This document shows positions 21,392 through 52,745 of a DNA stretch of 64,000 nt, one piece after another; position 1 is the stretch's first letter, and each line of letters begins with the position of its first letter. The notes below the pieces were generated by a model. It searched no databases. It was given only the letters and a program-made list of their open reading frames with translations, and was not told the origin of the DNA. Origin of the DNA: Cyanobacteriota bacterium (GTDB taxonomy: Bacteria > Acidobacteriota > Vicinamibacteria > Vicinamibacterales > UBA2999); NCBI GenBank assembly GCA_019752015.1, contig JAIEMQ010000005.1, positions 62,001 through 126,000 on the forward strand. The letters are read 5' to 3'. Both the position numbers and the translations under genes were made by a program.

Positions 21392-22816
21392 TCAGATCCC
21401 CAGAGAAGCAGCGCGCGAGCGCTGCCAGTGTTCGATGTCGGCCGCCGTCACAGTATCACCGTGGTGGAGCGTCCAGTTGAGCGCGGCGATCAGGTCGCCG
21501 GCGTCCTCGAGGCCGACGGCAAGGCGAACGAGCCGATCGAACCCATTGCGCTTCAACTGCTCGAGCGCGGTGAAGTATTCGGAAACGGTGCGGTGATGAT
21601 TGACCTTCGTCGTCAGCCCGTCGAACGACAGCGCGTAACGGACCACGACGGTTGTTGCCAGCACGTCGGCATAATGACGCGTCTGATCTTCGTCGGCGCC
21701 GGCGACGCGGAACGACAGCATCGAGCCATGGCGCGCGTAGTGCTTGTCGATCGCCGCGCGATCGGGATGGCCAGGCAGCGACGGGTGGAATACTTCGCTG
21801 ACTCGTGGGTGCGCGCTCAAGAACGCGGCGACCTTCGCCGCCGTCGCCGATCGACGCGCGTGCGAATCGCTCGCGCCGTCGAACGCAGCCGCCACCGCGA
21901 CGGCGCGCCGCCAGTCGAGGATGCCGCCGCGCATGGCGATCAGATCCATTACCGAATTCGCGAACTGCGTGTCGTTGGTCGCGATGTAACCCCACATGTC
22001 GCGATCGTTCCCGCCGAGCGACTTGGTGCCGCTGGCAACAACAATGTCGACGCCGTTGGTGAGCGGCGGACGCTTGAACGCCCAGGGCGAGGCGATCGTG
22101 GTGTCGAGCACGAGACGAACCGCCGGCGCGACCAGGCGCGCCTCATCGATCGCGCTGCGCAACGCATCGAAATCCTGCGCGCGCACCAGCGGGTTGGTGA
22201 ACGTTTCCGCGAAGACGAAGCGCGTCTCAGGCCTGATCGCGGCGCGCAGCGCAACGCTGTCGCCGTCATCGACGATCGTCACCGTTCCGCCGACGCGGGC
22301 GGCCATCCACTCGAGATAGCTGCGCGTCTTGTTGTAGACCTGCCGCATCAGCACGGCGTGCGCGCCAGGCCTGCCCTGAGCGTAGTCGAAGGGCTCCATC
22401 AACACATCGAATGCGAGCGCCGTCGCCTGCATGCCTGAATCGCAGACCAGCGCCGCCGATGCGTGCTCGAGCGTCTTCAGCCTCGCGATCAGCTCACTGG
22501 TGGCGTTGGTGCCGTATCGCGCATACAGCGCCGGGAGCTCCGACCAGCAGCCTTCACTGGCAAACAGGAACGCGGCCTTGCCCTCCTGCCACTCGATGAC
22601 CTGTTTCGATCCGAGCAGATCGAGCTGCACCGTTGGCTCATCGGGGTGCAGATAGGGGACACCAGCGCGGCGCGCATGCGCGTCGAGGGCCTCGTGCAGA
22701 TCTCTCGTCTGCGCGCTCATCGCGTCGAGAGGCGGACGCTCGGCTGGACACGACTTCGGATCGAGCCAATCGGCAATCGCCACGGTTCCCGGCTCCCGGC
22801 TCCCGGTTCCCGGCAT
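21392..22816 (-). CDS. PLP-dependent trans-sulfuration enzyme (cystathionine gamma-synthase/O-acetylhomoserine sulfhydrylase-like)
   Basis: 474 residues from ATG 22816, which overlaps the stop of the metX-hom fusion by one base. Later starts are possible because the first residues are encoded by a CCGGGAGCCGGG repeat. The Cys/Met-metabolism fold is clear: YARYGTNATSELIARLK...LE, CDSGMQATAL, FAETFTNPLV, and the PLP Lys265 in VASGTKSLGGN. It lacks the exact signature aromatic after the Lys, so the branch (gamma-synthase, sulfhydrylase or lyase) is uncertain. Context with homoserine acetylation favours conversion of O-acetylhomoserine to cystathionine or homocysteine. Residues 143-150 (FDYAQGRP) come from an inserted repeat. 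Confidence 0.85.
   Translation of the reverse strand: MPGTGSREPGTVAIADWLDPKSCPAERPPLDAMSAQTRDLHEALDAHARRAGVPYLHPDEPTVQLDLLGSKQVIEWQEGKAAFLFASEGCWSELPALYARYGTNATSELIARLKTLEHASAALVCDSGMQATALAFDVLMEPFDYAQGRPGAHAVLMRQVYNKTRSYLEWMAARVGGTVTIVDDGDSVALRAAIRPETRFVFAETFTNPLVRAQDFDALRSAIDEARLVAPAVRLVLDTTIASPWAFKRPPLTNGVDIVVASGTKSLGGNDRDMWGYIATNDTQFANSVMDLIAMRGGILDWRRAVAVAAAFDGASDSHARRSATAAKVAAFLSAHPRVSEVFHPSLPGHPDRAAIDKHYARHGSMLSFRVAGADEDQTRHYADVLATTVVVRYALSFDGLTTKVNHHRTVSEYFTALEQLKRNGFDRLVRLAVGLEDAGDLIAALNWTLHHGDTVTAADIEHWQRSRAASLGI
22369..22395. repeat. Intragenic CCCTGAGCGTAGTCGAAGGG element
   Basis: A short imperfect palindrome sits inside the PLP enzyme gene and adds the residues FDYAQGRP in frame. 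The same kind of element (CTTCGAC...GCTCAGGG) is widespread as an intergenic repeat in many bacterial genomes, from general knowledge. It lies between conserved blocks, so the enzyme can remain functional. Confidence 0.55.
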
Positions 22817-25167
22817 CAGTCGAGCACTCCGAGACACAGGAGACGATCGACGCGCGCGAGCTTCTCGACAGCCGCCGCAACATCGGCAATCTGTGAGCCC
22901 GTGCTCGGCGAAATCATGAACGCGATGTCGACGCGATCCCGCTCGCCTCGAGTGGCGCGGTTTTGAACGACCAGACCGAACCGGCGCACCAGGCCCTCGA
23001 ACTTCCGCTCGAGGCCCGGATGCGGCTGGCCGGTGATGCGCAGGTAATGCCGGCGGAGCGACGGCGCCACCGCCGAACCTTCCTTCGCAACCGGTAACGG
23101 TTGCGGCACGGGCCAGCGCGCGGAATTGTCCTGCGCGAGATCGATTAAGTCTCCGAGCATGGCGGTGGCCGTCGGCAGCGAGCCCGCGCCCTTGCCGAAC
23201 AAACTCAAGTCGCCCGAGGAGACGCAGCGCAGGTACACGGCGTTGTATTCCTCTTCGACCGATGCGAGCAGGTGCCACGACGGCAGCAGCAGCGGCTCGA
23301 CCGCCATGTCGAGCGCGCCGTTGACACGCACCGCGCGCGCGATCTGGCGGATGCGGAAGCCCATCGACTCGGCGAGATCGCAATCGGCCGGATCGATCTC
23401 GCGAATGCCGCGGACCACGAAGTCGTCGGGACGCACCCACGCGCCGAACGCGCGGTAGGCGAGGATCGAGAGCTTCGCCGCGGCATCGAGACCGTCGATG
23501 TCGGCGCCTGGATCGGCTTCGGCAAAGCCGAGGCGCTGCGCTTCTTCGATCGCGGCCTCGAGCGTCAGATCGCCCTGTTCGAGACGCGTCATGATGAAGT
23601 TGCAGGTCGCGTTGACGATGCCCCACAAGCTGTCGATCTCGTCGGCGCGGTGGCTGAGATGGCGGATGATCGGGATCGCCGCCGCTGCAGCCGCCTCGCA
23701 GTAGAGCGGCGTCTCGGTTCGTTGCGCGAGCACGCCGAGCTCCGCCAGTTTCGAGGCGAGCAGCTCCTTGTTGGCGGTGACGACCGGTTTACCCGCCGCC
23801 AGCGCGGCGACCAGGATCGGCTCGACCGCCTTGCCGCCCGCGGCTTCGACGACGACGTCGACTTCGGGGTCGCTGACGAGCTCGAGCGCGCGATCGGTGA
23901 TCGGAATGCCGGTGACGCGCGGTCCGCGGTTCTTCTTCACGTCGCGCACCGCGATCCGTGACACGCGGAACTTCACGCCGTAGCGATCGGCGATCGCGCT
24001 GCTCTGGCGATCGATCATTTCCAGCAGGCCGCGCCCGACCGTGCCGCAGCCGACCAGGCCGATGCGAATCTCGCGCACCGGCTCCACGCCGACGCCCTCG
24101 AACTTCGGCCGCGACGCCGTCTTCAGCGGCTTGCCGAACGCCTCGGCGCCGCGCAGCAGATCGGCGAGCTTGTCCTGATCGGCAAGAAACGCATCGTGTC
24201 CGTAGAGCGATTCGAGCTTCCAGAGCGACGAGTCCGCGCCCGCGGCCTGCAGCGCGCGATGCAGCTCCACCTGCAGCGCCCACGGGAACAGCATGTCGCC
24301 GGGCACGCCGATGACGATCGTTTCCGCGTTGACGCGCGTGCACGCCTCCCGCACCGCCTGCGCGTCGCCCATCGATTCGCGATCGATCGCCTCGCTCAGC
24401 AGCAGGAAGGTCTTGACCGGGAAGCGCTCCGCGAATCGCCGGCCGTGGTGATCGAGATACTCCGCCACCGGCGGACGCTCGAGATGCGGCAGCAGCTTGC
24501 CGAACCGCGTGTCGAGCTCGTCGCGGCCGCGATACGTCAGCATGCCGAGCTGCCGGGCGCGCGTCATGCCGGTGGCGACGTCGCCGTTGCGGAGGCCGTC
24601 GCGCACGAGCTCGCGTTGAAGATGCCGCGTGGCGGTGCCCCATCCATCGGGACGAAGGCCGGCGGAGATCGTGATCAGCTTCGCGCAGCGCTCGGGGTGA
24701 CGTGCCGCGAACACCACGCCGACCATGCCGCCGAGGCTCGCGCCGATCCACGTCACCGGGATCGTGCAGCCGCAGCCGTCGAGCCACGCCGCCACGAGAT
24801 CGGCGAGGCCCGCGACGGAAATGATCTCGTGCGAATGCGGATCGTCGAAGCCCCGCCACGTCGATCCGTTGCCCGGCCACGACGGGCAGAGGACGGTGTA
24901 CTTCGCCGGATCGATCAAATCCGGCGCGCACAACGCCGGCCACCACGCCGCGCGTGGATCCTCGCCTTCCGATTGCCCGTCGCCGAAGGGAAATGGAGAG
25001 GCGGTGATGCCGCCGACGATCAGGACCGCCGGCGCGGTGCCGAGCTCGGGTCCATAGACCCAGCCGCCAAGCTGCACATCTTCGAGCTTGCGCCCCTCGA
25101 TGGTGAGCGAGAGGTGATCGATGACCAGCCGCCGGGCGCGAAGCTCGGTGGCTGCCAGGGTGGCCAT
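22816..25167 (-). CDS. Fusion of MetX-like homoserine O-acyltransferase with homoserine dehydrogenase
   Basis: 783 residues from ATG 25167. Residues about 1-345 are an alpha/beta-hydrolase acyltransferase of the MetX type: PAVLIVGGITAS, nucleophile Ser144 in GASLGGMVG, acid Asp291 in GVPGDMLFPW, and His324 in LYGHDAFL. After a short linker, residues about 366-783 are homoserine dehydrogenase: Rossmann IRIGLVGCGTVGRG, TANKELLA, the active-site EADPGADIDGLDAAAKLSIL, and a C-terminal ACT domain (HYLRITGQPHPGLERK). One polypeptide would thus reduce aspartate semialdehyde to homoserine and acylate it, the committed step to methionine. The ACT domain suggests threonine or methionine feedback. A TACAAT lies 6 nt before the ATG. 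There is no frame break between the two parts. Confidence 0.92.
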   Translation of the reverse strand: MATLAATELRARRLVIDHLSLTIEGRKLEDVQLGGWVYGPELGTAPAVLIVGGITASPFPFGDGQSEGEDPRAAWWPALCAPDLIDPAKYTVLCPSWPGNGSTWRGFDDPHSHEIISVAGLADLVAAWLDGCGCTIPVTWIGASLGGMVGVVFAARHPERCAKLITISAGLRPDGWGTATRHLQRELVRDGLRNGDVATGMTRARQLGMLTYRGRDELDTRFGKLLPHLERPPVAEYLDHHGRRFAERFPVKTFLLLSEAIDRESMGDAQAVREACTRVNAETIVIGVPGDMLFPWALQVELHRALQAAGADSSLWKLESLYGHDAFLADQDKLADLLRGAEAFGKPLKTASRPKFEGVGVEPVREIRIGLVGCGTVGRGLLEMIDRQSSAIADRYGVKFRVSRIAVRDVKKNRGPRVTGIPITDRALELVSDPEVDVVVEAAGGKAVEPILVAALAAGKPVVTANKELLASKLAELGVLAQRTETPLYCEAAAAAAIPIIRHLSHRADEIDSLWGIVNATCNFIMTRLEQGDLTLEAAIEEAQRLGFAEADPGADIDGLDAAAKLSILAYRAFGAWVRPDDFVVRGIREIDPADCDLAESMGFRIRQIARAVRVNGALDMAVEPLLLPSWHLLASVEEEYNAVYLRCVSSGDLSLFGKGAGSLPTATAMLGDLIDLAQDNSARWPVPQPLPVAKEGSAVAPSLRRHYLRITGQPHPGLERKFEGLVRRFGLVVQNRATRGERDRVDIAFMISPSTGSQIADVAAAVEKLARVDRLLCLGVLD

Positions 25168-25173
25168 CGCGGC

Positions 25174-25183
25174 ATTGTATGAT
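25174..25183. promoter_or_regulatory. Overlapping bidirectional -10 element (metX-hom / cyclase)
   Basis: The 24-bp gap between the two divergent starts contains ATTGTATGAT. Read on plus it gives TATGAT, 8 nt before ATG 25192. Read on minus it gives TACAAT, 6 nt before ATG 25167. The identical decamer stands between the divergent genes at 48254. Neither start has a Shine-Dalgarno, so both transcripts should be leaderless. Confidence 0.65.
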
Positions 25184-25191
25184 GCCTCGCC

Positions 25192-26193
25192 ATGCGTACA
25201 GCTATCACCGTCGCGATTTTCGCCGTGGGCGCAATTGCATCCGGCTTCACGCCCAACGATCACGCGTCCGCCTTCGCCGAGGCTGCGGCGAGACAGGCTC
25301 GTTCTCCGGTGAATGCCGAGGAATTCGATCAGATGTTCCAGCAGGTCAAGAACTGGGGACGCTGGGGCGCCGAGGACCAACTCGGATCGGTCAACCTGAT
25401 CACTGCCGCGAAGCGGAAGCAGGCGCTGTCGCTCGCGAAGACAGGGCAGACGGTCTCGCTCGCGCACAATCCGATCACCGACAAGTCCGACGATAACGCC
25501 AGTCCGTTCGAGCACACCATGCTGCCCGGCTTCAGCATGGACCGCTACGCCGTGTCGTATCACGGCTACTCGCACAGCCACCTCGACGCGCTGTGCCACA
25601 TCCTTTACAAGGATCAGACCTACAACGGTTACGCGCGCGCCGTCGTCAACACCGAGAAGGGCTGCACGAAGTTAAGCATCGACAATCTGAAGCAGGGATT
25701 GATCACGCGTGCCGTGCTGCTCGACATCCCACGCCTCAAGGGCGTGCCGTATCTCGAGCCCGGCACGGCGGTATATCAGGAAGATGTTGAAGCGTGGGAA
25801 AAGATGTCGGGCGCGAAGATTCAATCCGGTGACGTGATCCTGCTGCGCACCGGCCGGTGGGCGCGGCGAGAGAAGGTTGGCCCGTGGGCGGTCGGCAGGA
25901 GCGCGGCCGGGTTCCACGCCTCGATCATTCCGTTCATCAAGGCTCGCGGTGTCGCGATTGTCGGCAGCGACGCCGCATCCGAAGTGTCGCCGTCGATGGT
26001 TGAAGGCATCGGCCTTCCCGTTCACACGCTGCTGATCACCGCGCTCGGCGTGAACATCCTCGACAATCAAGATCTCGAGGCGTTGTCTGAAGTTGCCGCG
26101 AAGCTGAAGCGATGGGAGTTCATGATCACGATCAATCCGATTCCGGTCACCGGCGGCACCGGCTCGCCGCTGAACACGATCGCGGCCTTCTGA
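25192..26193 (+). CDS. Exported cyclase-family (kynurenine formamidase-like) hydrolase
   Basis: 333 residues with a signal peptide (AITVAIFAVGAIASG). PF04199-type core: WGRWGAEDQLGSVNLIT near residue 55, the metal-binding motif YHGYSHSHLDALCH near 125 (family HxGTHxDxxxH), and GDVILLRTGRW. The usual GTH is GYSHSH here, which keeps the His/Asp ligands. Members hydrolyse amides or lactones, including N-formylkynurenine and isatin, using manganese or zinc. It is divergent from the metX-hom fusion with only 24 nt between starts. The substrate is unknown. Confidence 0.88.
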   Translation: MRTAITVAIFAVGAIASGFTPNDHASAFAEAAARQARSPVNAEEFDQMFQQVKNWGRWGAEDQLGSVNLITAAKRKQALSLAKTGQTVSLAHNPITDKSDDNASPFEHTMLPGFSMDRYAVSYHGYSHSHLDALCHILYKDQTYNGYARAVVNTEKGCTKLSIDNLKQGLITRAVLLDIPRLKGVPYLEPGTAVYQEDVEAWEKMSGAKIQSGDVILLRTGRWARREKVGPWAVGRSAAGFHASIIPFIKARGVAIVGSDAASEVSPSMVEGIGLPVHTLLITALGVNILDNQDLEALSEVAAKLKRWEFMITINPIPVTGGTGSPLNTIAAF

Positions 26194-47371: not shown

Positions 47372-48247
47372 CTACCTGATCGTCCGGAACTTCCCGTATT
47401 CGGCGCGGCCGGTAATGCGCTCGCCGGCGCGCACGTATGACTCGCGCATTTCCACCGGCACCAGGAATCCCATCAGCGGCTCTGATTGATAACTGACCGT
47501 GACGCGCGCGTTGACGCCGCCGCCGTCGAGGAGCATCTCGCTGATCAGGACGCTGCCGTTGTCCGGTTCGATCCAGAAGCGGCCGCGCGCCGGCAAACTG
47601 GATCCATCGAGTCTCCTGACGAGCGTCTGGCCACCGCGTTCTTCGAATTCGATCACCCACATCTCGGTCGTGACGCGAAACACCGCGGCGTCGTTCGCCG
47701 CCGCGTCCTGCCTGTTCGTGAACACCGGCGTGGCTTTGTCGACGTGCTTGAAGCGGACGCGGGCCTGTCGAGATGGATCCAGGAACTGCAGCGCCATCAA
47801 CGGCGTGTTGATGGTTCGCGTGATGGTGCCGATGTTGTAGCGCGCGCTCTCTTTGAGGATGGAGCCGATCTGCGCTTCTGCGGCCACGGACGGATCCCGC
47901 AGCAGTTTCTCCAACCGCGCCTGACGATCGCGCACCGGTACGCCGTTCACCTCGAAGACGTCGCGCAGCTCCACGTAGCGGGTCGAGTCAGCCGGCTTCA
48001 CGAGGAGCAGATCCGACTTGAGCCGCCGCGCCGGCGCAACGATGACCGCGTCCGCGTAGCGCTGGTCGGTCGCGGTGTCCTGCCAATAGTCCTCTTCCGC
48101 GACGATGCCCGACAGTTGTTTGTGAAAATCCGCAACGTAAGCGGCGGCACGCTTCAGCACGTCGTCCAGCGACGGCTGCTGCGCGGCGGGGTGCGACGCC
48201 AGGAATCCGGCGACGAGCGCCGTCGACATCAGTCGCCATTTCGACAC
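47372..48247 (-). CDS. Exported protein of unknown function
   Basis: 291 residues from the GTG at 48247. That start lies 6 nt after TACAAT and gives a proper basic signal-peptide start (SKWRLMSTALVAGFLASH); ATG 48229 is an alternative. There are no enzymatic motifs. The C-terminal ~120 residues (TEMWVIEFEERGGQTLVRRL, RGRFWIEPDNGSVLISEM) form long amphipathic strands as in LolA-like or outer-membrane-sorting folds, which is only a visual impression. Similar proteins recur in Acidobacteriota. It is divergent from the PafA-like phosphatase. Confidence 0.72.
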   Translation of the reverse strand: MSKWRLMSTALVAGFLASHPAAQQPSLDDVLKRAAAYVADFHKQLSGIVAEEDYWQDTATDQRYADAVIVAPARRLKSDLLLVKPADSTRYVELRDVFEVNGVPVRDRQARLEKLLRDPSVAAEAQIGSILKESARYNIGTITRTINTPLMALQFLDPSRQARVRFKHVDKATPVFTNRQDAAANDAAVFRVTTEMWVIEFEERGGQTLVRRLDGSSLPARGRFWIEPDNGSVLISEMLLDGGGVNARVTVSYQSEPLMGFLVPVEMRESYVRAGERITGRAEYGKFRTIR

Positions 48248-48253
48248 GCGCTG

Positions 48254-48263
48254 ATTGTATGAT
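48254..48263. promoter_or_regulatory. Overlapping bidirectional -10 element (hypothetical / phosphatase)
   Basis: ATTGTATGAT, identical to the decamer at 25174. Plus reading TATGAT is 12 nt before ATG 48276. Minus reading TACAAT is 6 nt before GTG 48247. The gap between the divergent starts is only 28 bp. Confidence 0.62.
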
Positions 48264-48275
48264 GCGTGCCGCGAT

Positions 48276-49940
48276 ATGAAGCAGACCGCCGCCCTCGCAT
48301 TGCTTCTCCTGCTTGCGGCAATTACGCCGAGCGCGCCCGCCTCCGCGCACGGCGCTGCCGCGCGGCAGGCTCCCTCGGCGCCGGCCGCGTCGAGCAAGCC
48401 GAAGCTGATCGTCATGCTGTCCGTCGATCAGATGCGCGGCGATTACATCGACAAATTCCGTCACCAATGGACGAAGGGGCTGCATCGCCTCGTCACCGAA
48501 GGCGCGTGGTTCAGGGACGCGAACTATCCCTACTACACGACCGTGACGTGCGCCGGTCACGCCAGCATCGGCACCGGCACGGTGCCCGCGGTCCATGGCA
48601 TGGTCGCGAACACGTGGGCGGACCGCAACAACGCGCGCACCGTCAGCTGCACCGACGACGAGACGGCGAAGCTGATTCCGTACGCCGCGCCGGTGACGAG
48701 CGTCGCGCACAGCGCGAACAACCTGATGGCGCCGACGCTCTCCGACGAAATGCGTTACCAGTCCTGGCCGGCGCCGCGCGTGGTCGGCATTTCGCTGAAG
48801 GCGCGTTCGGCGATCAATCTCTCCGGCCACCGTCCCGATGTCGTGGTGTGGCTCGACGAGCGCGATGGCGGCTGGGTCACCTCAACGGCGTTTGCAAAGG
48901 CACCGGCGCGTTTTCTCCAGGAGTTCTTCGCGAAGCATTCGATGACCGAGGAGATGGGCCGCACGTGGAACCGGTCGATGCCGGCGGATCAGTATTTATA
49001 CGAATACTCGAAGGAGAACCGGCGCCGCACGCCGCACGCGTCGGTCGAGTTCCCGCACGTAACCAGGGGCCGCGGCGACGAAGTCGGCGGCGCGATCACC
49101 GACGCGTGGGAGGCGAGTCCGTATTCCGATGCCTACCTGAACGCCATGGCAATGGCGTCGCTCGACGCAATGAAGCTTGGCCGCGGCGCTGGAACAGACT
49201 TTCTGGCGATCAGTTTCTCGGCACTCGATCTGACCGGGCATTCGTACGGGCCGCTGTCGCACGAAGTGCAGGACGTCCTGTTCCGCCTCGACGAGCAGAT
49301 CGGGCTGCTGCTCGACAAGCTCGATCGCGACGTCGGCCGCGGCCAGTATGTTGTCGGCCTGAGCGCCGATCACGGCGTGGCGCCGGTGCCGGAGGCCATG
49401 AAGGCAGACGGATTCGATGCCGGGCGAGTTGCAGCCGCCGCAATGGGCCAGGCCGTCGACGCCGTGCTGGCGCGCGAGCTCGGTCCGGGCTCCTATCGCA
49501 CGCGCGTGCTCGGCAACGACGTCTATTTGAACGACGGCATTTACGCGAAGCTGTTGCAGAATCCTGCCGCGATGGAAGCGGTGCTCGGCGCCGTGCGCAG
49601 GACCGAAGGCGTGTTCCGCGTCTACCGGAAGGACCAACTATCGGCGACGGATCCACTGACGCGGCAGCTGTTCCTCAGTCACTACGAAGGACGCAGCGGC
49701 GACATCAAGTTCCTGCTCCGCGCCTACTGGATCAACTCGCCGTCGACGAGCACGCACGGCACCGGCAATCGATACGACACGCACGTGCCGGTGCTGTTGT
49801 ATGGCTTCGGCATCAAGAAGGGGGAGTATCTCGAACCGTCGGCGCCGATCGATCTTGCGCCGACGCTGGCGTTCCTGAGCGGCGTCACGCTGCCGAACGC
49901 GATGGGACGCGTACTGACAGAGGCGTTGCAAAGACGCTGA
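48276..49940 (+). CDS. PafA-like alkaline phosphatase-superfamily enzyme
   Basis: 554 residues from ATG 48276 (an upstream ATG at 48255 would lie inside the promoter). It has a signal peptide. Alkaline phosphatase/NPP-type metal sites: SVDQMRGDYID near 49, the nucleophile Thr in YYTTVTCAGHASIGTG near 88-95, SALDLTGHSYGP, SADHGVAPVP, and YDTHVPVLLYG near 510. The Thr nucleophile with the TCAGHAS context matches the PafA branch, a periplasmic phosphomonoesterase scavenging phosphate. Adjacent genes do not add to the assignment. Confidence 0.88.
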   Translation: MKQTAALALLLLLAAITPSAPASAHGAAARQAPSAPAASSKPKLIVMLSVDQMRGDYIDKFRHQWTKGLHRLVTEGAWFRDANYPYYTTVTCAGHASIGTGTVPAVHGMVANTWADRNNARTVSCTDDETAKLIPYAAPVTSVAHSANNLMAPTLSDEMRYQSWPAPRVVGISLKARSAINLSGHRPDVVVWLDERDGGWVTSTAFAKAPARFLQEFFAKHSMTEEMGRTWNRSMPADQYLYEYSKENRRRTPHASVEFPHVTRGRGDEVGGAITDAWEASPYSDAYLNAMAMASLDAMKLGRGAGTDFLAISFSALDLTGHSYGPLSHEVQDVLFRLDEQIGLLLDKLDRDVGRGQYVVGLSADHGVAPVPEAMKADGFDAGRVAAAAMGQAVDAVLARELGPGSYRTRVLGNDVYLNDGIYAKLLQNPAAMEAVLGAVRRTEGVFRVYRKDQLSATDPLTRQLFLSHYEGRSGDIKFLLRAYWINSPSTSTHGTGNRYDTHVPVLLYGFGIKKGEYLEPSAPIDLAPTLAFLSGVTLPNAMGRVLTEALQRR

Positions 49941-50003: not shown

Positions 50004-50918
50004 TCAAGAGTTCAACAGATTCCCGATCTCTTCCAAATTTGGAATACCGGCCATCGCTCCCGCGCGTGTGACGCTGATCGCTGCTGCCGCATTTGCGAAC
50101 CGCAACATCTGCTGGGGCGAATACTCATTCAGCATCGCGTAGATGAACGCCGCGCGAAACACATCACCGGCGCCGGTGGTGTCGACGGCGGTCACCGTGA
50201 ACGCCGGCTCGGAGATGATCTCGTCGCCGATCATCAGCATCGCGCCGCTCGGCCCGAGCGTGGCGCACAACAGGCCATCATGCGATCGGCGCACCACCTT
50301 CAGGCCGCGCGTCAGATCCTCTTCGCCGGTGATCGCCGGCAGCACGTGCTGCGCGAACATCGGAATGCCGACGGCGGCAACCAGATCCTTGGTGCGATCG
50401 GTGATGCGATCGATGTCGCTGGTGCACGGCACGCCGGCGCCGCGCGCCGCCGCCGCCACCGCGATGGCGGCCTCTTGATCCTCGTCGTCCACGTGGACGA
50501 CCCGCGCCGAGGCGATCAGAGTAGCGTTGATGTCGCGCGTCCGGAGATTCAGCCGATCGTCGCGGTCCCACAGCACGATCCGCTCGCCCGACGTCTCGTC
50601 GACGGTAATCACCGCAAACCGGTTGGCGCACTCGCGCGTCATCACATGTGAGACATCGACGCCGCGCTGCTGGAGCTCGCTGAGAATCAGGCGGCCGTTG
50701 TGATCGTGGCCGACCGCGCCGACATACGTGGTCTTCAACCCGAATCCGGCGCACGCGGCCATCGCCGTCGCCATCTGTCCCCCGCACATCGTCGCGTGGC
50801 TGGAGATGCGCAACTTGGCGGTGGGACTGTCGGCTTTGGGGGACGCGGGCAGCCGGTAGACGTGATCGACGGAGTTACAACCCACGCCGAGCACGTCCCA
50901 CTGCTTGGGACCTGGCAT
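50004..50918 (-). CDS. PfkB-family carbohydrate kinase
   Basis: 304 residues, cytoplasmic. N-terminal GVGCNSVDHVYRLPASPKAD and GGQMATAMAACAGFG (sugar-binding di-glycine region), and the catalytic signature VDTTGAGDVFRAAF near 245 with the Asp base. This is the ribokinase/PfkB fold; substrate could be ribose, a nucleoside, adenosine or a ketosugar acid. Nothing in the neighbourhood fixes it. TATACT lies 7 nt before the ATG without a Shine-Dalgarno. It is divergent from the VWA gene. Confidence 0.9.
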   Translation of the reverse strand: MPGPKQWDVLGVGCNSVDHVYRLPASPKADSPTAKLRISSHATMCGGQMATAMAACAGFGLKTTYVGAVGHDHNGRLILSELQQRGVDVSHVMTRECANRFAVITVDETSGERIVLWDRDDRLNLRTRDINATLIASARVVHVDDEDQEAAIAVAAAARGAGVPCTSDIDRITDRTKDLVAAVGIPMFAQHVLPAITGEEDLTRGLKVVRRSHDGLLCATLGPSGAMLMIGDEIISEPAFTVTAVDTTGAGDVFRAAFIYAMLNEYSPQQMLRFANAAAAISVTRAGAMAGIPNLEEIGNLLNS

Positions 50919-50925
50919 CGGGGTC

Positions 50926-50933
50926 AGTATAGT
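50926..50933. promoter_or_regulatory. Overlapping bidirectional -10 element (PfkB kinase / VWA protein)
   Basis: AGTATAGT gives TATAGT on plus, 6 nt before ATG 50940, and TATACT on minus, 7 nt before ATG 50918. The divergent starts are separated by 21 bp, too few for separate leaders. Confidence 0.68.
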
Positions 50934-50939
50934 ACGGCT

Positions 50940-52745
50940 ATGCGTGTCCTTATAACGTTGCTGATTGCCGGAGCAGTCGTTTCGGCGTCACAACAGCCGG
51001 GACAACCCATCTTCCGCGCGGGCACCGATCTCGTTCGCGTCGACGTCACGGTCACGCAGCGGGGCGACGAGGCCGTGGCCGATCTCAAGATGGAGGACTT
51101 CGAGATCACCGAAGACGACGTGCCGCAGACCGTCGAGACCCTGAAATTCATCAAGGTCGATGGGACGCGGACGTCGAACCTCGACGAGCCGCTCGAAATC
51201 CGATCGAAAGACCACGCGCTGCTCGAAGCGGCGCGCGAAGACGTGCGGCTGTTCGCGATCTTCCTCGATGACTATCACATCTCGAAGCGGCCGGACATCA
51301 CGCTGCCGCTCCGCGATGCGCTCACCAGGTTCATCAACCAGCTTGGCCCGAACGATCTGGTCGCGTTGATGGATCCGCTGACGACGCTGTACGACCTCAA
51401 GTACACGCGATCGAAACCCGATCTACTGGCGCGGGTGCGGAACTTCGAAGGCCGCTACGGCGAGACCTTCCCCGTGAAGAGCGCGATCGAGGAGGCGCAG
51501 CTGTCGCAGCGCAACTGGATGGAGCTGCGCAGCGGCGTGACGTTGTCCGCGCTCAAGGCGCTTGCGACTCAGATGGGCGGCCTGCGCGACGGCCGCAAGT
51601 CGATCCTGTTTTTCAGCCAGGGGCCCGGCGTGCGTCCGGGCAGTCCCAACGATCAATTGATGCGTGAGATCGATGAGGCGGCCAACCGCGGCAACGTCAC
51701 GATTCACGTGATCGATCCCCGGCCGCTCGGCACGGTTGGCTTCGGCGGCGACCAGATCCTGCGCCGGCTTGCTGCCGATACCGGCGGTCGCGCCATCGTC
51801 AACACCAACGATCCGATGGAACAGCTCGGCGGCGTGATGGCGGATGCGAGCGCGTATTACCTGGTCGGCTACACCCCGACGCGCCGCAGCAACGACGGCA
51901 GGTTTCACGAGATCAAAGTGCGCGTCAAGCGGCGCGGGGTTCGCGTCAACGCGCGGCGCGGCTACTGGGCGGCAAGCGAAAAGGAACTGACCGCGGCCGC
52001 CGAGGCCGCGGCGACGCCGGCCAACACCGCGTTGACCGGCGCGCTGTCGGCGTTGTCCGACTCGGTCAACACGCGCGCGGTCGCGATCTGGACCGGCTTC
52101 GCGAAAGCCGGCGCGGACAAGACGCGCGTGATGTTCACGTGGGAGCCGAATCAGCCGGTGCCGGCGCAGAAGCCCGCGCGCCTCGAGATTCAGCCCGTCG
52201 ACGACACCGGCAAGGAAACCACGACGGCGCAAGTGATTGGCGGCGCGCCGGGCGAGCTGCCGCTGATGGCGCGGTTTGATTTCACCGCGGGCCGTCAGCG
52301 CCTGCGATTCACGTCGTTGACCGCGTCAGGGGAAGTGATCGATCGCTGGGTGCAGGCGCAGGCGATCCCCGACTTCACCAGGCAGCCGCTGGTGCTGGCG
52401 ACGCCAAAGATCCTTCGCGCGCGAAACATGGTGGAGTTCCGCGCCATTGAAGCGAATCCATCCGCATCGCCGACCGCGACCACGAGATTCGGCGCCACCG
52501 ACCGCATCCTGGTCGAGCTCGAAGTGCAGGCGCCGGACGGCGTGACGCCGCAAGTGAAGATCGATCTGCTCAATGCGAAGGGCGATTTCCTGCAGACGCT
52601 GCAGACGTTGACGGTCACCGGCGGCAAGGCTCGGATGCCGCTGCCGGTCGGCAGCCTCGCGAACAGCACGTATGTGCTCCGCATCGAAGCGACGGCCGGC
52701 GACGAAACAGCGCAGCAGTGGGTTGCCTTCCGCGTCCAGCGCTGA
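50940..52745 (+). CDS. VWFA-related Acidobacterial domain protein, long form
   Basis: 601 residues with a signal peptide (LITLLIAGAVVSAS). It has the same N-terminal pattern as the gene at 737 (FRAGTDLVRVDVTVTQRG...LKMEDFEITEDDVPQ). The VWA domain begins LFAIFLDDYHISKRPD, where the usual DxSxS MIDAS is degenerate. The family tail YYLVGYTPTRRSNDGRFHEI and ARRGYWA follow. An additional C-terminal region of about 180 residues is beta-rich and unrecognised. Export is likely; metal-dependent binding is doubtful because of the MIDAS change. Confidence 0.88.
   Translation: MRVLITLLIAGAVVSASQQPGQPIFRAGTDLVRVDVTVTQRGDEAVADLKMEDFEITEDDVPQTVETLKFIKVDGTRTSNLDEPLEIRSKDHALLEAAREDVRLFAIFLDDYHISKRPDITLPLRDALTRFINQLGPNDLVALMDPLTTLYDLKYTRSKPDLLARVRNFEGRYGETFPVKSAIEEAQLSQRNWMELRSGVTLSALKALATQMGGLRDGRKSILFFSQGPGVRPGSPNDQLMREIDEAANRGNVTIHVIDPRPLGTVGFGGDQILRRLAADTGGRAIVNTNDPMEQLGGVMADASAYYLVGYTPTRRSNDGRFHEIKVRVKRRGVRVNARRGYWAASEKELTAAAEAAATPANTALTGALSALSDSVNTRAVAIWTGFAKAGADKTRVMFTWEPNQPVPAQKPARLEIQPVDDTGKETTTAQVIGGAPGELPLMARFDFTAGRQRLRFTSLTASGEVIDRWVQAQAIPDFTRQPLVLATPKILRARNMVEFRAIEANPSASPTATTRFGATDRILVELEVQAPDGVTPQVKIDLLNAKGDFLQTLQTLTVTGGKARMPLPVGSLANSTYVLRIEATAGDETAQQWVAFRVQR

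Follow-up and report, generated by a model that had tools for sequence, protein, structure and literature searches.

Two short gaps between divergent genes of an Acidobacteriota genome carry an identical decamer that probably serves as a bidirectional −10 promoter core

The window, that is, the whole stretch of 64,000 nucleotides analysed here, belongs to a genome (G000) whose relatives are Acidobacteriota. It contains two head-to-head gene pairs separated by 24 bp (pair 1, a metX-hom fusion and a putative cyclase) and 28 bp (pair 2, an uncharacterised protein and a phosphodiesterase-like protein), and both gaps hold the decamer ATTGTATGAT. A third pair with a comparable gap was found close to pair 2. 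The features are as follows.

22816-25167, minus strand: metX-hom fusion, 783 aa, with a homoserine dehydrogenase match above cut-off and an N-terminal MetX-like acyltransferase part
25174-25179, minus strand: predicted −10 hexamer TACAAT of metX-hom, 6 nt before ATG 25167
25174-25183, both strands: candidate bidirectional −10 core ATTGTATGAT of pair 1, 10 of 10 bases kept in the congener G004
25178-25183, plus strand: predicted −10 hexamer TATGAT of the cyclase gene, 8 nt before ATG 25192, kept in G004
25192-26193, plus strand: putative cyclase, 333 aa (PF04199)
47372-48247, minus strand: uncharacterised protein, 291 aa, GTG start
48254-48259, minus strand: predicted −10 hexamer TACAAT, 6 nt before GTG 48247; same spacer length and GTG in G004
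48254-48263, both strands: candidate bidirectional −10 core ATTGTATGAT of pair 2, 10 of 10 bases kept in G004
48258-48263, plus strand: predicted −10 hexamer TATGAT, 12 nt before ATG 48276 (9 nt in G004)
48276-49940, plus strand: type I phosphodiesterase / PafA-like protein, 554 aa, PafA model match below cut-off
50004-50918, minus strand: PfkB-family kinase, minus partner of pair 3
50926-50933, both strands: third candidate bidirectional core, AGTATAGT, with TATACT on the minus strand (50926-50931) and TATAGT on the plus strand (50928-50933)
50940-52745, plus strand: plus partner of pair 3, no Pfam hit

Each copy of ATTGTATGAT is made of two −10 hexamers, TATGAT on the plus strand and TACAAT on the minus strand, with a common central TA. 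The first-pass annotation had called the decamer self-overlapping; the two hexamers are there, with an overlap confined to that TA. The rest of its description was borne out: the same ten bases lie in both gaps, the hexamers stand 6-12 nt from the start codons, and no Shine-Dalgarno-like run was seen by eye in the four spacers. The two copies are also the sole ones, both in the window (each of 100 shuffles gave 0) and in the assembly of 5,917,992 bases, where the reversed pattern does not occur. Searches returned no tRNA and no RNA family at gathering score. The N-terminal part of metX-hom matched MetX models below their cut-offs.

At both loci the opposite-strand −10 elements have bases in common, which is the arrangement described for the symmetrical −10 bidirectional promoters of the Grainger group (PMC12825309, PMC10268837). 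According to these accounts, the paired TSSs of such promoters are spaced by 18, and also by 10 and 23 bp, with the 18-bp class being the commonest in E. coli and Salmonella, and bidirectional promoters on the Salmonella chromosome are biased to gaps between divergent genes. From this layout we consider it quite probable that each decamer is the core of a bidirectional sigma-70-type promoter with leaderless or near-leaderless genes on both sides. RNA polymerase would bind in one of two orientations, each excluding the other, with the self-complementary TA providing positions −12/−11 of each −10 element. Since the optimal distance from −10 to TSS is 7 bp (PMC12825309), the minus RNAs would begin with the start codon itself, giving leaderless mRNAs, and the plus RNAs at the start codon or within about 5 nt of it; in pair 2, whose plus start lies 12 nt from the −10, the predicted leader is about 5 nt long. 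The spacing would put the TSSs about 23-25 bp apart, where the class is defined by divergent TSS pairs 7-25 bp apart, and the geometry would fit the 23-bp class, although the step from a −12/−11 TA to 23 bp is our own arithmetic. What distinguishes the present decamers from the Grainger-group promoters, as far as those are described, is that a TSS is predicted at, or very close to, each of the two start codons, so that the 24-28 bp between the genes would consist almost wholly of core and spacers.

The survey of Zheng et al. 2011 (PMC3160421) describes leaderless genes in which TANNNT stands about 12 bp upstream of the start codon, and reports leaderless genes in three of three Acidobacteria genomes, at an average of 13.3%. 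In the same way, the first T of TACAAT lies 12 nt before both minus starts, ATG 25167 and GTG 48247. For the cyclase the first T of TANNNT is 14 nt before ATG 25192, and the hexamer gap falls inside the 6-12 nt range of this genome. Gene 48276 lies outside that pattern, its first T being 18 nt before the start (15 nt in G004). The earlier suggestion that both transcripts of each pair are leaderless would thus fit the two minus genes and probably the cyclase, and would not hold strictly for gene 48276 with its 12-nt spacing.

Among eight congeners compared, G004 is the only one with both divergent pairs, and 20 of 20 decamer bases over the two loci are identical between it and G000; none of the other seven has a copy of the decamer. 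The four proteins are 89, 79, 70 and 66% identical between the two genomes, with agreement at 260 of 437, 97 of 137, 137 of 231 and 55 of 101 four-fold sites (54-71%), and of the four-fold sites ending in A or T only 16 of 91 are kept (5/38, 6/20, 4/25 and 1/8). The decamer's 20 of 20 may partly reflect general conservation, because a count by eye finds the spacers fairly conserved as well, with 11 of 14 bases identical for pair 1 and 6 of 6 for the minus spacer of pair 2. A search of 43 genomes of the family returned seven copies of the decamer, spread over five genomes, and 0 for the reversed control; six of these copies have a start codon 6-12 nt downstream (by eye, frames unchecked in G009 and G053).

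The two directions differ in how strictly spacing is kept. The minus spacer is 6 nt at both loci in both genomes, and the plus spacers are looser, 8 and 12 nt in G000 and 8 and 9 nt in G004. This difference in G000 is what would be expected if the decamer were a one-way leaderless −10 for the minus genes, with the plus genes being transcribed from promoters inside their neighbours and carrying ordinary leaders. The same reading draws on metX-hom itself, since ACAAT followed by 6 nt and ATG is present there in nine of nine genomes, our own and the eight congeners, seven of which lack the adjoining cyclase. However, the TGAT bases that would serve the plus hexamer alone are kept in G004 at both loci, even if the pair 1 spacer is conserved too, and the short divergent gaps of G000 are two-sided far above shuffles, as detailed below. 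No other promoter-like site was scored in the 601 bases around each gap, which is a weak test because the scan demands a −35 and leaves the decamer itself unscored; likewise, no recognisable −35 or consensus promoter was scored at either decamer. Taken with these points, we regard one-way use as unlikely, and prefer the bidirectional core.

The bidirectional reading was compared with other divergent genes in a sample of 1.26 Mb, or 21% of G000 (the window, L003-L022 and L113-L152). Genes and starts were taken from a simple codon-based caller, leaving out those with a codon score below 30, and pairs with long gaps were left out, which kept 102 of 127 pairs in G000, 35 of 42 in G026 and 25 of 32 in E. 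coli. TANNNT before 254 starts of divergent genes showed a sharp edge, with 1 occurrence at a gap of 5 nt and 18 at 6 nt; gaps of 6-12 nt held 77 occurrences, against 14.7 per 7 nt further out. For the other 702 starts these numbers were 68 and 16.9. Predicted leaderless or short-leader starts are common in the G000 sample. With the same pipeline, 250 kb of E. coli gave no TANNNT peak (4 vs 9.9, 64 divergent-gene starts), and 280 kb of G026, a genome of the same order, gave a weak one (10 vs 4.1, 84 divergent-gene starts). In the G026 sample 0 of 35 pairs were two-sided; the habit is thus unproven beyond the genus, and order-wide generality is not claimed.

The comparison with shuffled gaps that the first-pass annotation had proposed was run on this sample. 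Of 16 called divergent gaps of 1-40 nt, 8 were two-sided (TANNNT 6-12 nt from both starts), 6 had overlapping elements and 4 had the shared-TA form, whereas 1000 dinucleotide shuffles gave means of 0.51, 0.43 and 0.23, and none of the 1000 reached the observed counts. The counts were 8, 6 and 4 for 27 gaps up to 60 nt, and 10, 6 and 4 for 48 gaps up to 100 nt, and these were never reached by shuffles either. Neither of the two reported pairs belongs to the 40-nt set, because the caller's starts are wrong there (25309 and 48229). When alternative in-frame starts within 120 nt were allowed, the two reported pairs entered the count, and of the 102 pairs 17 were two-sided, 13 had overlapping elements and 8 had the shared-TA form. 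On the same pairs, 59 composition-matched patterns gave means of 3.5, 2.5 and 0.17, with maxima of 14 two-sided (T...AT), 10 overlapping (T..A.T) and 3 shared-TA (T...AT and also.TA.T.); the top two-sided control, T...AT with 14 vs 17 observed, is itself part of TANNAT. Counted per site, 8 of 243 A...TA...T cores had the two starts of a called divergent pair at a distance of 6-12 nt on either side (6 of 241 without the reported two), compared to 0/433, 0/716, 0/746 and 0/38 for control cores containing TA and 3/1088 for the reversed core. The difference between A...TA...T and T...TA...A gave a Fisher p of 0.00026 with the reported pairs counted.

Position, conservation in G004 and the shuffled-gap test together support the earlier view of a shared −10 that would be read both ways with very short leaders or none. 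The two loci would be one case of a habit of G000, in which many genes are predicted to be leaderless and very short divergent gaps often hold a symmetrical −10. These data also bear on the possibility that the decamers are chance AT-rich stretches in short gaps with no promoter function. Start codons and AT-rich gaps are easily found, starts in the sample were assigned by codon score, and the spacers are conserved along with the decamer; set against this, all 20 bases are kept, the shuffles fall far short and the 6-nt edge is sharp, and we consider chance very improbable.

Within the two-sided pairs, the 23-bp arrangement was picked eight times and the 18-bp arrangement once. The per-site counts, 8/243 and 3/129, do not bear this out, and a real preference over the 18-bp class is unproven. 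For the 21-bp form A.TATA.T the per-site count was 5 of 13. A further count was set aside: ATNNTANNAT exceeded its reversal in 21 of 21 genomes (957 vs 303), but two TA steps are required in the reversal, and the scarcity of TA (0.0132 vs 0.0447 for AT) could by itself yield a ratio of this kind. As for −35 elements, no upstream position stood out in a set of 107 hexamers lying 6-9 nt before called starts, and TTG[AC] at about −35 was present in 1 of 19 short-gap cases and 7 of 88 others, the 19-sequence set being too small for a position-by-position comparison.

The same 107 hexamers show how much the identity of the two decamers means. Two identical copies 23 kb apart, none elsewhere in the genome, and both kept in G004, could point to a common regulator site or a small regulon co-controlling both pairs. 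But TACAAT occurs 8 times and TATGAT 3 times among the 107, the chance that two such hexamers agree is 0.039, and about 38 shared-TA units extrapolated to the whole genome would give about 2.1 identical decamer pairs of any kind. By our own arithmetic the expectation is about 1.5 when the extrapolation is made without the two reported units, and the estimate is rough, being based on 107 hexamers and on 8 extrapolated units of which two are the reported ones. In three other genomes of the family, moreover, single copies lie 7 and 6 nt before one ATG only, or before no start (by eye). The identity is therefore unsurprising and no pointer to a regulon, the 23-kb distance is a single feature noticed after the fact, and a shared regulon, highly improbable in our judgement, was rejected on the hexamer estimate. 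A meaning of the identity beyond that of common −10 hexamers is not supported, and the decamer as such is not enriched, the genome having just its two copies.

Further candidate cases of the bidirectional arrangement were found in the genome and genus. An earlier gap scan on a first sample of 464 kb gave pair 3, whose 21-bp gap (50919-50939) holds AGTATAGT with overlapping −10 elements 7 and 6 nt from the starts at 50918 and 50940. In G008, G003 and G004 the same gap carries the shared-TA form AGTATAGGAT, and in G005 the form is 4 bases longer. The 47372 gene has relatives in G001, G002, G006 and G008 and a further one in G000; they are found next to ATTATAGACT or ATTATAGTGG and face an upstream CAT (by eye), the partner frame being checked in G000 alone.

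In order to trace the origin of the pairs, the window was compared with the matching regions of G004, G008, G005 and G003. All four keep metX-hom and the phosphodiesterase-like gene in the same order, along with most of the shared genes that lie in between, and the cyclase and the 47372-48247 gene occupy these places in G004 alone. The simplest reading is that both genes were probably inserted in the lineage of G000 and G004, while their loss in the other congeners is possible. In the seven congeners without the decamer, the hexamer before metX-hom is CACAAT in six and GACAAT in one, which suggests that the TA that would be used in both directions came from a CACAAT-to-TACAAT change.

About 35-55 nt upstream of metX-hom, seven of seven other congeners have a palindrome of the type ATCCACNTATGTGGATAYGTT with at most one mismatch. 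It is absent there in G000 and G004, which have single 3-mismatch matches elsewhere. A related palindrome with 3 mismatches is present in six of the seven, and in the four that were read it overlaps the start of a gene with an ArsR-type HTH and a methyltransferase part (family search on one), adjoined by what looks by eye like a methionine synthase-like gene. The ArsR-type gene is kept in G000 and G004 (82 and 78% identity), with a similar palindrome at its start. The palindrome is probably an ArsR-type operator of metX-hom, and the gene and its site may resemble those of SAH-responsive ArsR repressors. As the palindrome stands at metX-hom in the seven congeners and in neither G000 nor G004, the cyclase probably occupies the place of a former methionine-type repressor operator. 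A two-site methionine regulon is probable in the genus (L221 2969-2989, and upstream of metX-hom in L055-L061), the metX-hom site having been lost in G000 and G004.

These observations lead to a broader proposal, which we put forward tentatively, as possible rather than probable. In this genus a self-complementary −10 may make up most of the intergenic region in a sizeable share of divergent pairs, as the 13 overlapping two-sided cases in 102 sample pairs would suggest, with two leaderless or near-leaderless mRNAs from each core. New pairs would arise when a gene comes to lie next to an existing leaderless −10, whose mirror reading would immediately drive its transcription; in the metX-hom case the ArsR-type operator would have been displaced in the process, so that an amino-acid gene would have lost its repressor site and become tied to an unrelated gene. 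If the bidirectional reading is right, two protein-coding genes would depend on one core as their only promoter, each mRNA beginning at the start codon or right beside it, and a single base change or a clash between polymerases would consequently affect both. An inserted gene would gain expression simply by borrowing the mirror reading of its neighbour's −10, and genomes of the genus that carry the inserted gene and others that lack it would form a natural before-and-after comparison.

Bidirectional −10 promoters are known in kind, and bidirectional −10 elements have already been linked to mRNA synthesis in other bacteria (PMC12825309); the present cores would add a leaderless twist and a visible probable origin. 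A related case, lysG-lysE of Mycobacterium tuberculosis, has divergent, overlapping promoters and a leaderless transcript mapped by RNA-seq (PMC5648196). It differs in its 108-bp gap and dependence on a regulator, and, as described there, the overlapping promoter is not the source of the leaderless lysE transcript, which is made from a second one. The words 'divergent' and 'bidirectional' do not occur in the main text of PMC3160421, and two leaderless genes served by one symmetrical −10 were not described in the titles and abstract openings searched, which lay mostly outside subscription journals, nor in passages of PMC6448022 and PMC4287449.

Two observations concern the database records. Proteins that match most of metX-hom are present in records carrying the labels Acidobacteria, Deltaproteobacteria, Kofleriaceae and Myxococcales (L158-L198), which makes it a widely distributed fusion of two enzymes at the methionine branch. 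The G004 record VFZG01000002.1 (L158) is titled Acidimicrobiia bacterium, yet its genus-mates are labelled Acidobacteria, and it is possibly a mislabelled MAG.
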